Part shown: piece by piece, positions 52,845 to 55,862 of the stretch
How positions within the stretch are numbered: position 1 is the first letter of the stretch
Layout: the number at the start of each line of letters is the position of its first letter
The notes under the pieces: model-generated
Told to the model about the DNA's origin: nothing
Seen by the model: the letters and a program-made list of their open reading frames with translations, nothing else
Databases searched by the model: none
Position numbers and translations under genes: made by a program
NCBI RefSeq assembly: GCF_004124325.1
Contig: NZ_QBDT01000001.1
Coordinates: 5,270,001 to 5,334,000, forward strand
Origin: Streptomyces sp. L2
GTDB lineage: Bacteria; Actinomycetota; Actinomycetes; Streptomycetales; Streptomycetaceae
DNA length: 64,000 nt
Reading direction: 5' to 3'

Positions 52845-53429
52845 TCAGGGACTCGGCGCGGTCAGATACCGCTGCACGGTCGGTCCCACCCACGCCACGA
52901 TCTCCTGCGGATGCAGCGCCACGGTCGGCGGCAGCCGCAGCACGTACCGGGTGAGCGCGAGCCCGAGGAGCTGCGCCGCACACAGAGCGGCCCGCACCGG
53001 GACCTGCTCGGGGTCGGGGCACGCCTGCCGGGCCACGGGCAGCAACTGGTCCCGGAAGATCTGCTGCATCCGCTCGGCCCCGGCCTGATTGGTGACCCCG
53101 ACCCGCAGGACGGCCGTCAGCTCCTCGTTCTCCTCCCACATGCCGAGGAAGTGCGTCACCAGCGCCCGGCCGAACTCGTCGCGGGGTACGGCGCCCAGGT
53201 CCGGCATCCGCAGGTCGAGCCGCACGGCCGCCGCGAAGAGGCCCTCCTTGCTGCCGTAGTAGCGCATCACCATGGACGGGTCGATGCGCGCGTCCTTGGC
53301 GATGGCGCGGATGGTGGCCCGCTCGTACCCGTCGGAGGCGAAGCGCTCGCGGGCGGCGGCGAGGATCGCGGTACGGGTCGCGTCGCTGCGGCGGGGCGGG
53401 GAGGTCTTCGTGGTGCCGGTGCCGGTCAT
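52845..53429 (-). CDS. TetR family repressor of the adjacent FAD monooxygenase
   Basis: Protein of 194 residues. The N-terminal HTH is typical: R-T-A-I-L-A-A-A-R-E-R-F-A-S-D-G-Y-E-R-A-T-I-R-A-I-A-K-D-A-R-I-D-P-S-M-V-M-R-Y-Y-G-S-K. The helical ligand-binding domain starts around residue 75. The ATG at 53429 has no Shine-Dalgarno; TACGCT lies 8 bases upstream, so a leaderless transcript is likely. It is divergent from the FAD monooxygenase gene and the whole gap is filled by a 14-bp palindrome array, its likely binding sites. Confidence 0.92.
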   Translation of the reverse strand: MTGTGTTKTSPPRRSDATRTAILAAARERFASDGYERATIRAIAKDARIDPSMVMRYYGSKEGLFAAAVRLDLRMPDLGAVPRDEFGRALVTHFLGMWEENEELTAVLRVGVTNQAGAERMQQIFRDQLLPVARQACPDPEQVPVRAALCAAQLLGLALTRYVLRLPPTVALHPQEIVAWVGPTVQRYLTAPSP

Positions 53430-53430
53430 G

Positions 53431-53682
53431 CCAACGAGCGTAGGCCAACAGGTGTGGGTCAACAAGTGTGTGCCAACGGGTGTGGATAAGTGGGTGTGGG
53501 GCAGCGGGCGCTTGCCAGCGGGTGTGGATATGCGGGCGTGCGTCAATGGGCGCTTGCCATCGGACGCTTGCCAACGCGTGTGGGCCAACGACTGTGTGCC
53601 AACAGGTGTTGACATCACCCCCGCCCCGGTCCTACCGTTGCCAACAAGCGTTGACCAACAAACGTTGGCCCACAAGTGTTGG
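53431..53682. repeat. 14-bp tandem palindrome array between tetR and oxygenase genes
   Basis: Eighteen successive 14-base registers start at 53431 and every 14 bases to 53669. Sixteen of them are recognisable variants of CCAACANNTGTTGG, a near-perfect inverted repeat. Best copies: 53655 (CCAACAAACGTTGG), 53669 (CCCACAAGTGTTGG) and 53599 (CCAACAGGTGTTGA). Registers 53613 and 53627 are not repeat-like but keep the spacing and hold the oxygenase promoter. The array begins right after the tetR start codon and ends just before the oxygenase Shine-Dalgarno. It is most simply a stack of TetR operators. Confidence 0.85.
53609..53638 (+). promoter_or_regulatory. promoter of the FAD monooxygenase inside the array
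   Basis: TTGACA (53609-53614) and TACCGT (53633-53638) are separated by 18 bases. The -35 hexamer overlaps the end of the repeat at 53599, and the three last array units lie at the transcription start and leader. Confidence 0.65.
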
Positions 53683-53699
53683 CGCCCCAGGAGGCCCTC

Positions 53700-55211
53700 A
53701 TGACCGGCACCACTGGACACCACAGCACCACCGGCACCGGCAACACCCCCGCCCCCGCAACCACCCCCCGCGTCATCGTCACCGGCTCCGGCCCTACCGG
53801 CCTCCTCCTCGCCGGTGACCTCGCCGCCGCCGGTGTCCCGGTCACCCTCCTGGAAAAGCGCCCCCGCAAGATCAGCAACCTCTCCCGCGCCTTCGTCCTG
53901 CACGCCCGCACCCTCGAACAGCTCGACGCCCGCGGCCTCGCCGACGACCTGGAGGCCATCGGCCAACCGCTCCAGCAGCTCCGGCTCTTCGGCCGGCTCA
54001 CCGTGGACCTCGCGGCCCTCCCTTCCCGCTTCAACCACCTCCTCGTCCTCCCGCAGTACGAGGTCGAGAAAGTCTTGCTGCGGCGCGCGGTCGAGGCCGG
54101 GGTCGACTTCCGGTACGAGACCGAGCTGACCGGACTGACCCAGGACGCGGACGGGGTGACGGTCGAGGTCTGCGGGCCGGAAGGCCGTACCGAGGAGCTG
54201 CGGGCGGCGTACGTCGTCGGTGCCGACGGGATGCGCAGCGCGGTGCGGGAGGCCGTCGGGCAGCCGTTCCCCGGCAAGTCGGTCATCCGGTCCGTCGTCC
54301 TCGCCGACGTCAAGCTCGCCGAGAAGCCCCCCACCCTCCTCACCGTCAACGCGGTGGGTGACGCCTTCGCGTTCCTCGCGCCCTTCGGGGACGGCTACTA
54401 CCGGGTGATCGGCTGGCACCGCGGCCGCAACGTGCCCGACCACGAGCCGCTGGACCTGGCGGAGGTCAAGGAGATCACCCGGCTCGCGCTCGGCCGGGAC
54501 TTCGGGATGCACGACGCACGCTGGATGTCCCGCTTCCACAGCGACGAGCGGCAGGCGCCCGCCTACCGGGTCGGCCGGGTCTTCCTCGCCGGGGACGCCG
54601 CCCACGTGCACACCCCGGCCGGCGGCCAGGGCATGAACACCGGCCTCCAGGACGCGGCCAACCTGAGCTGGAAGCTGGCCGCCGTCGTCACCGGCCACGC
54701 GGACCCGGAACTGCTCGACAGCTACCAGGCCGAACGCCACCCCGTCGGCAAGGCGGTGCTGCGCAGCAGCGGCGGGATCGTCCGGCTCGCCATGGCCAAG
54801 CGCCCCTGGACCCTGGCGGCCCGCGCCGCGCTCACCACCGTCCTGAACGCCGTCGGCCCGGCCCGCCGCAAGGTAGCGGCGCAGGTCACCGGCCTCGGCT
54901 ACGCGTACGCCGCACCGAAGGGCGCCCACCGCCTCACCGGCACCCGGGTCCCGGACGTGCCCCTCGCCGACGGCCGCCGCCTCTACGAGGCGCTGCGCGG
55001 CGGCCGCTTCGTCCTGATCACCCCGGAGCCGTACGAGGACGGGCGCGCGGACCGACTGGCCGTGGCCCGCTGGGCGAGCGACCGCCGTACGACCGTCCGC
55101 CGTACGACCGTCCTGGTGCGCCCCGACGGGCACGTGGCCTGGGCCGCCGACTCCGCGGACCGCTCCTCCGTCGACGCGGCCCTCGCCCGGCACCTCGGGC
55201 CCGCCGCCTGA
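53700..55211 (+). CDS. FAD-dependent aromatic monooxygenase (group A; rifampicin/PgaE-like)
   Basis: Protein of 503 residues with AGGAGG 5 bases before the ATG. FAD-binding GxGxxG: V-T-G-S-G-P-T-G-L-L-L-A-G-D-L. V-G-A-D-G-M-R-S-A-V-R is the conserved DG motif and G-D-A-A-H-V-H-T-P-A-G-G-Q-G-M-N-T-G is the GD motif. A thioredoxin-like C-terminal domain (about residues 400-500) is present as in PgaE and rifampicin monooxygenase. Such enzymes hydroxylate phenols or polyketides with NADPH and O2. Control by the divergent TetR suggests induction by a xenobiotic or antibiotic. Confidence 0.93.
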   Translation: MTGTTGHHSTTGTGNTPAPATTPRVIVTGSGPTGLLLAGDLAAAGVPVTLLEKRPRKISNLSRAFVLHARTLEQLDARGLADDLEAIGQPLQQLRLFGRLTVDLAALPSRFNHLLVLPQYEVEKVLLRRAVEAGVDFRYETELTGLTQDADGVTVEVCGPEGRTEELRAAYVVGADGMRSAVREAVGQPFPGKSVIRSVVLADVKLAEKPPTLLTVNAVGDAFAFLAPFGDGYYRVIGWHRGRNVPDHEPLDLAEVKEITRLALGRDFGMHDARWMSRFHSDERQAPAYRVGRVFLAGDAAHVHTPAGGQGMNTGLQDAANLSWKLAAVVTGHADPELLDSYQAERHPVGKAVLRSSGGIVRLAMAKRPWTLAARAALTTVLNAVGPARRKVAAQVTGLGYAYAAPKGAHRLTGTRVPDVPLADGRRLYEALRGGRFVLITPEPYEDGRADRLAVARWASDRRTTVRRTTVLVRPDGHVAWAADSADRSSVDAALARHLGPAA

Positions 55212-55222
55212 GACCGGGGCGG

Positions 55223-55440
55223 CTACCCGGCCGTCGAGCGCAGCAACTCCCGCAGCAGGCCGGCCAACTGGCCGGCCTGTTCGGCGTCGAGGGAGGCCAG
55301 GGCGGCGGTCTGCTCGGCGAGACCCGCGCCGACCGCCTCGTCGACGAGCCGCAGACCCTCCTCGGTGAGCGTCACCTGGAGGGCGCGGCGGTCGTGAGGG
55401 TCGGGGAAGCGGCGCAGCAGACCCGCCCGTTCCAGGCGTT
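55223..55440 (-). pseudogene. C-terminal fragment of a MarR regulator
   Basis: The minus strand reads R-L-E-R-A-G-L-L-R-R-F-P-D-P-H-D-R-R-A-L-Q-V-T-L-T-E-E-G-L, the MarR wing, followed by the C-terminal dimerisation helices and a stop. The first half, including the recognition helix, is absent. The break falls at about 55440, where an unrelated EamA-family fragment begins. Confidence 0.75.
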
Positions 55441-55862
55441 CTGGCGCTGGCTGATCGCGCTCGTCGTCGTCGCCCCCTTCGGCGCCCCGCGGGCCTGGCG
55501 GCAGCGGCACCCGATCCGGCGACACGCCGGCTACGTGCTGCTCGCCTCGCTCCTCGGTGTGGCCCTCTGCAACACCCTCGTGAACCAGGCCGCGCTGACC
55601 ACACCGGCCGCCACCATGGGCGTGGTCATGGCCGCGTCGCCGGTCCTCATGGCGGTGTTCGAGCGGCTGGGCGGCGCACGGCTCGGCGCACGCCGCACCG
55701 CCGGGCTGCTGGCCGCCGGCGCGGGCGTGGCACTGCTGGTCTGCGGAGGAAGCGGAGGAAGCGCGGGAAGCGGCGGAGCCGGGGTGGGCTTCGGCGCCGG
55801 TGGCCTGTGGATGCTCGCGGCCACCTGCTGCTTCGCCGGATACAGCGCGCTGCAACGCCGCA
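55441..55862 (+). pseudogene. EamA (DMT) transporter fragment, lacking both ends
   Basis: Plus-strand F-W-R-W-L-I-A-L-V-V-V-A-P-F matches the second membrane helix region of EamA transporters, followed by G-V-A-L-C-N-T-L-V-N-Q-A-A-L, T-T-P-A-A-T-M-G-V-V-M-A-A-S-P-V and W-M-L-A-A-T-C-C-F-A-G-Y-S. There is no start codon in a proper context upstream; the frame instead runs into the MarR fragment. Similarity also stops after L-Q-R-R-R-P-A, so about half the ten-helix protein is gone. Confidence 0.75.

Follow-up and report, generated by a model that had tools for sequence, protein, structure and literature searches.

Two genes, a tetR and one for an FAD aromatic hydroxylase (the oxygenase below), diverge from a 270-base gap (53430-53699) in the window, the 64,000-nucleotide stretch of Streptomyces DNA analyzed here. 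Most of the gap, 252 bases (53431-53682), is covered by 14-bp units in 18 exact registers. The features of the locus are as follows.

52845..53429, minus strand: tetR, 194 aa, divergent, predicted repressor reading the array (TetR_N PF00440 and TetR_C_16 PF17920 above cut-off)
53431..53612, plus strand: upstream half-array, registers 1-13, with scores against CCAACRNNYGTTGG of 11, 11, 9, 10, 7, 8, 9, 6, 8, 9, 11, 10, and 11 of 12
53437..53442, minus strand: proposed tetR -10, TACGCT, inside unit 1 and 7 nt before the ATG of a putative leaderless start (from sequence)
53473..53556, plus strand: segmental duplication, units 4-6 versus units 7-9, 42 bp each, 34 of 42 identical; TRF period 42
53609..53614, plus strand: TTGACA, proposed oxygenase -35, whose first four bases (TTGA) are the 3′ end of unit 13
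53613..53640, plus strand: registers 14-15, read as core-promoter spacer and -10, not operator copies; scores 2 and 5 of 12; CTAnnnT-like gap end conserved in relatives
53633..53638, plus strand: proposed oxygenase -10, TACCGT, 18-bp spacer from the -35 (from sequence and relatives)
53641..53682, plus strand: registers 16-18, the downstream half-array, covering the leader and expected start site of the oxygenase; scores 11, 12, and 11 of 12
53689..53694, plus strand: Shine-Dalgarno AGGAGG of the oxygenase
53700..55211, plus strand: FAD aromatic hydroxylase, 503 aa, divergent target (FAD_binding_3, Rng_hyd_C)

By Pfam and an AlphaFold model (all-helical, mean pLDDT 89.9), the TetR protein combines an N-terminal HTH with an all-helical ligand domain, and its nearest solved folds are 2np3 and 2guh. 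Membership in RefZ or BetI was rejected, the NCBIfam scores of 35 of 180 and 33 of 201 bits being far below cut-off and due to the HTH only. The best solved relatives of the hydroxylase are 5kow, 4k2x, and PgaE (2qa1); its assignment as a rifampin monooxygenase failed at 353 bits against a cut-off of 800. A MarR-like gene on the minus strand of the window (55223-55510) seems shortened, with 71 matching residues versus 139 in G020, a genome lacking this TetR.

A first-pass annotation of this DNA had described an 18-register array with a 14-bp period, and both register scoring and lag-14 self-match confirm its coordinates, period, and count. When 14-mers were scored against CCAACRNNYGTTGG, 16 of the 18 registers, the number of recognizable copies originally given, matched at at least 6 of 12 positions, and 14 fell within the top 1% of 14-mers in the window. 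The summed register score was 161, versus 67.2 (SD, 6.3; maximum, 95) outside the array in the window, and lag-14 self-match over the 252 bases was 0.58, versus 0.29 ± 0.04 along the window. Registers 5 (top 3.5% of window 14-mers) and 8 (top 12%) are weak, and registers 14 (2/12) and 15 (5/12) are at background level. The middle units, 5 to 10, reach only 6 to 9 of 12, so many of them may fail to bind, although five of these six are still in the top 4% of 14-mers. The degraded middle first described is seen in units 5 to 10; registers 14 and 15 look like promoter, not decay.

These two registers are best read as the oxygenase core promoter (spacer and -10) rather than as decayed copies, because TTGACA is followed by 18 bp, TACCGT, and then registers 16 to 18. 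A continuous stack from start codon to Shine-Dalgarno had been proposed. Its extent is right, 252 of the 270 gap bases being covered, but it is not uniform and appears instead as two half-arrays flanking a sigma-70-like core promoter. No Shine-Dalgarno precedes the tetR ATG, and unit 1 is one base away. It is true that the 252 bases contain no indel, including within the 13 upstream registers, but the unbroken register across the oxygenase promoter is partly luck, since the same step in relatives is 41 bp (57 loci), 42 bp (35), or 40 bp (5 of 97), equivalent to spacers of about 17, 18, and 16 bp.

Both promoters are proposed from sequence and conservation, and where units 1 and 13 and registers 14 and 15 depart from the motif, they fit the putative promoter elements. 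Unit 1, separated from the tetR ATG by one base, has the minus-strand sequence CCTACGCTCGTTGG; its consensus in relatives is CCAACaA.cGTAGG (97 loci), and CATG stands immediately ahead of the first unit in 80 of the 97. The consensus of the last upstream unit is CCAACAagtGTTGA, with C mostly the next base (97 loci). At both divergent promoters, predicted elements interlock with the palindromic units in 97 of the 102 loci, the window among them.

The relatives comprised 113 loci, the best 110 of 145 TetR matches at E ≤ 1.2e-71 (own locus included) plus L001 to L003, which are real relatives with 75 to 81% identity. A divergent oxygenase is present in 102 of the 113, and 11 have no oxygenase match in the stretch examined. 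Within these best 110 of 145 plus L001 to L003, one plan recurs in 97 of the 102 tetR/oxygenase loci, own included: 14-bp units run from the tetR ATG, the last upstream unit gives the TTGA(C) of the presumed -35, a TAnnnT -10 follows, and more units come after it. The parsing rule returned no core promoter in five of the 102 (L041, L043, L073, L079, and L080); it also gave our own array as 12+3, skipping one weak register, and L019 and L050 as 1+1, in conflict with their site count. Sites matching at at least 9 of 12 number 3 to 23 per oxygenase locus (median, 6); the window has 12, and there are more in L041 (23), L016 (21), L032 (15), L008 (13), and L015 (13). Across all 113 loci, 700 such sites define 588 successive steps, 436 of exactly 14 bp and 101 of 40 to 42 bp, the latter mostly over the promoter. 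The expectation raised with the array, that among relatives unit number would vary and the 14-bp period be kept, is borne out save for a few loci: the units of L102 and single steps in L083 and L084 are 13 bp, and the period is not absolute.

The commonest forms, counted as upstream plus downstream units, are 2+3 (24 loci), 2+2 (16), 3+3 (13), and 3+2 (10), together 63 of 97. The window, with 13+3, has the longest parsed upstream half, followed by L032 with 10; L041 is not parsable. Since most relatives have four to six units, the long stack is extreme, as first supposed, but it is not unique, its plan being shared by 97 of 102 loci. Change in array length is recurrent: arrays of at least 8 units occupy 16 of 97 rows and imply 13 gains or losses on a tree of the 97 TetR proteins, and well supported branches make 11 of these unavoidable. 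The tree neighbors of the window TetR (L005, L007, and L008) have 3+3 or 3+4. In the available text of PMC3511530, divergent regulation is well supported for gaps under 200 bp, as a statistical rule with named exceptions; the gap in the window, at 270 bp, is longer, and 84 of the 102 loci are under 200 bp.

The link of the array to tetR, also drawn in the first-pass annotation, is upheld by distant loci, by co-occurrence, and by the malQ region. In 18 distant loci (L210 to L227), the TetR is 50 to 57% identical to ours; 17 of them face an oxygenase about 40% identical to ours, and L218 has none in the stretch. Two or more sites lie on either side of a 41- to 44-bp step in 15 of the 18; a single upstream site exceeds the threshold in L219 and a single downstream site in L220, and in L223 there are two upstream sites, with the next ones more than 300 bp away. 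L208 and L209, from another family of the order (TetR 66% identical), keep the sites and the promoter step with a different target, so that, judged from the sequences, the sites follow the regulator rather than the target. Beside tetR in the 11 loci without an oxygenase in the stretch, at least two sites are found in 8, one in L103 and L104, and none in L087. The divergent genes of L208 and L209 encode two small proteins, by eye the first like antibiotic biosynthesis monooxygenases (ABM-type) and the second glyoxalase-like.

A 2.5-unit pattern was searched for in 61 genomes of the genus, and at least two matches were found in 30 of 30 genomes with the TetR (E < 1e-45) versus 1 of 31 without it, kinship ignored; a dispersed repeat present regardless of TetR would not be distributed in this way. 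The one TetR-less genome with two matches is G044, three more have one each, and the reversed pattern gave 0 to 2 matches per strand. Genomes like those 11 loci, with the TetR but no oxygenase in the stretch, were not part of this set, and the co-occurrence could stem in part from shared descent. In 10 of 10 TetR-less genomes, the sequence up to 1.5 kb from the small gene adjoining malQ contained neither tetR nor oxygenase nor array; at that gene, tetR and sites were present in 4 of 4 TetR genomes, G014 lacking the oxygenase there. Across the order, TetR matches at E ≤ 1e-45 occur in 137 of 245 genomes, which belong to 4 of the 8 genera. At its tetR (L175 2819-2902), G014 has a six-unit array and a MarR-like gene as neighbor instead of the oxygenase, and it also carries several distal arrays.

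One 14-bp unit is most likely the site of one dimer, with the dyad inside the unit. This is suggested by half-site centers about 9 bp (31 Å) apart within the unit, by consensus arrays that open with CCAAC and close with GTTGG, and by the firmest positions being AAC and GT.G, with the two central bases varying (700 sites, selected for likeness). For comparison, the half-site spacings given in the accessible part of PMC4150764 are 31 to 32 Å for TetR and SimR and 37 to 38 Å for QacR and CprB. The dyad at unit junctions, GTTGGCCAAC, was disfavored as the operator: its half-sites would be separated by just 5 bp or so, and both ends of consensus arrays are formed by whole CCAAC..GTTGG units. The units are 14 bp and side by side, and pairs of them (28 bp) recur. 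Neighboring dimers would sit 14 bp, about 47 Å, and 120 degrees apart on B-DNA, so contact between them is possible, as is, from geometry alone, a cooperative or filament-like coating of the array by TetR. That sites return to one face of the DNA every 42 bp follows arithmetically from the 14-bp spacing. Selection for helical face (a 42-bp rule) was considered and set aside, with a lag-3 z of only 2.4, few arrays involved, and a promoter step of 41 bp commoner than 42.

Growth of the array by duplication, as first suggested, is visible in the 34 of 42 bases shared between units 4-6 and 7-9; units 2-4 and 11-13 share 35 of 42. Compared to shuffled unit order over 30 runs (some loci giving several, and L081 and L175, the same locus, counted twice), units were more alike at lag 1 (z, 3.9) and lag 3 (2.4), with 0.6 at lag 2, and less alike at lags 5 (z, -3.3) and 7 (-2.3). 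Lag 3 is the best lag for our own array and the strongest in a few others (L041 and L228), which have a 42-bp period too. Duplication of three units occurs, but it is clear in few arrays only and is not the rule. The 13 upstream registers of the window contain six perfect CCAAC half-sites and no perfect GTTGG, and inner upstream units of relatives likewise have GT.GG, which fits growth from inner copies.

We consider it very probable that the array is a set of tandem operators for the adjacent TetR, acting on both promoters, and the best reading of the window is an unusually long version of a conserved multi-operator TetR divergon. Each 14-bp unit would hold one TetR dimer, with the dyad inside it. 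Units beside the tetR ATG would overlap the promoter of a leaderless tetR, and units would run into the oxygenase -35 and resume just after its -10. We imagine that bound TetR would shut both promoters until a ligand, probably one of the aromatic compounds that the oxygenase acts on, released it. The ancestral core may have been two or three units per side, the upstream half having reached 13 units in the window lineage by what would be duplication of inner units. The sites, their promoter-like geometry, their conservation and co-occurrence with TetR, and the repeated change in length are observed directly; the promoters, binding, repression, and ligand are what we infer from them. Several findings sit poorly with operators: the 270-bp gap, the low-scoring middle units, the distal arrays, the siteless L087, the single site in L103 and L104, and the 13-bp spacing of L102.

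Whether the extra units do anything is evenly balanced in our estimate between function and neutral growth. If they do, their likeliest effect, to which we give a little under an even chance, would be to keep more repressor close at hand and to make the response steeper or better buffered. In a rival account that we hold at a similar level, only the two or three promoter-proximal units per side operate, and the long upstream stack grew neutrally by slippage or unequal exchange. Two or three units per side suffice in 63 of 97 loci, the nearest kin (L005, L007, and L008) have just 3+3 or 3+4, the middle units are degraded, and the excess likeness of adjacent units (lag-1 z, 3.9) and the 42-bp duplications also speak for it. 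Harder to square with it are the middle units that still rank high (five of six in the top 4%), the 13 registers without any indel, the repeated gain or loss of long arrays (16 of 97 rows; 13 changes on the tree), and the finding of distal arrays only alongside TetR.

We think it improbable that the array mainly binds some other factor, whether a nucleoid protein or a regulator not linked to it, or that it belongs to a dispersed repeat family parked at tetR. In favor of this, our own genome has two additional arrays with this period and motif at a distance from tetR, and there are others in G014, G016, G040, and G151; against it, 30 of 31 TetR-less genomes, G020 included, have fewer than two matches, and the short form flanks the divergent promoter by TetR in nearly all loci with a target gene. 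That the repeat acts as RNA (leader hairpins) or as coding sequence seems scarcely credible. An open frame of 919 aa does cross the array on the minus strand, but unit number in relatives changes by steps of 14 bp, a length not divisible by three. The downstream units would fall in the oxygenase leader, whose computed fold has two hairpins, the unit-18 palindrome being one (-13.8 kcal/mol, without a shuffled control); thirteen registers, however, precede the point where oxygenase transcription is expected to start and would not be part of a leaderless tetR mRNA.

Taking the units as TetR operators, parts of the arrangement are familiar. The Omega-type plasmid repressors, small dimeric ribbon-helix-helix proteins, bind contiguous 7-bp heptad arrays in promoter regions; both systems have unspaced tandem sites at promoters, but there a ribbon-helix-helix protein meets 7-bp sites, and here a TetR would meet 14-bp ones. 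SlmA acts in nucleoid occlusion. It is TetR-like and, in the accessible part of PMC4150764, forms multi-dimer complexes at chromosomal sites, whereas the sites predicted here are in tandem beside the regulator's own gene. QacR and CprB place two dimers cooperatively on one operator, a class of 22 to 32 bp; compared with the 22- to 28-bp two-dimer operators described in the same text (PMC4150764), the units here are 14 bp, side by side, and open-ended in number, and multi-dimer binding is a prediction. The TetR/tetA divergon has the same layout of divergent repressor and target with palindromic operators in the shared gap and, as far as the available text of PMC3511530 goes, both promoters repressed there, but it has two operators, compared to sixteen recognizable contiguous registers here and mostly four to six units in relatives. 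Also of this kind is SCO7222/SCO7223 of S. coelicolor, a Streptomyces TetR-family gene facing a monooxygenase gene with several similar palindromes, footprinted and repressing; as described in that available text, it differs in having three 15-bp TGGAACGNCGTTCCA sites of another motif in discrete regions, not a contiguous array (PMC3511530). No account of the motif or array was found in the literature searched, a weak absence because subscription papers were mostly outside it.

The loci provide a natural series in which the predicted operators of one promoter pair range from 2 to 13 on the upstream side and from 2 to 8 on the downstream side, within one genus, at near-fixed spacing, and with one repressor family. 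It allows the effect of extra operators on threshold, steepness, noise, and dimer-dimer contact to be tested directly. Unit, spacing, and promoter layout also predict binding sites of the regulator in about a hundred genomes, and the layout could become a tunable Streptomyces switch.

The arrays away from tetR fall outside the operator model and are its least explained part. They include the following.

C1 5634736-5634971 (L134 3736-3973): second array of our own genome, about 17 units, at the end of a HAD-like gene, with a convergent small zinc-ribbon-like gene (names by eye)
C1 7327955-7328313 (L135 3455-3816): third array of our own genome, 19 sites at at least 9/12 with several register breaks, from the end of a ROK-like gene to the start of a glycosidase-like gene (names by eye)
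L173 3281-3625, L170 3315-3430, and L229 2964-3203: arrays beside the 3′ end of one penicillin-acylase-like gene in three genomes

Arrays also occur at this HAD-gene position in G016 and G151. Searching eight TetR genomes with a 3-unit pattern gave clear distal arrays in three (G000, G016, and G040) and matches at tetR only in five; the reversed pattern matched nowhere in the eight. G014 has several, one of them between divergent genes, and the remaining distal arrays, in our own genome and a few relatives, are mostly at gene ends. When 16 TetR and 14 TetR-less genomes were compared, runs of at least three units were found beside the acylase gene in 4 of the 15 TetR genomes that have it (weak in G151) versus none of the 9 TetR-less genomes with that gene; next to the HAD gene, such runs occurred in 4 of 16 TetR genomes (about 750 bp off in G040) versus 0 of 14 TetR-less ones. 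The acylase gene of TetR-less G020 is 91% identical to that of array-bearing G016.

These distal arrays may be decoys, roadblocks, silencing sites, or harmless seeding. One can envision, though we regard it as rather unlikely, an open-ended lattice of 14-bp operators that grows, shrinks, and seeds chromosomal copies at gene ends and convergent gaps, where many repressor dimers in helical order would serve as titrating decoys or as silencing or anchoring bodies, with array length and number tuning the switch. To our knowledge, in no other TetR-family system does control evolve through the number of repeats instead of through the sequence of the operator. Should TetR bind the distal arrays, they would represent tandem operators clustered at scattered places in a bacterial chromosome, on which natural titration of a repressor could be tested cleanly.

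Two further arrays may be mentioned. The distal array at L228 3257-3522 has about 19 to 21 units with a clear 42-bp (three-unit) higher-order repeat. In G017 (L174 3301-3384), a second copy of the FAD oxygenase, away from tetR, has a four-site array upstream and is a candidate further target of TetR.
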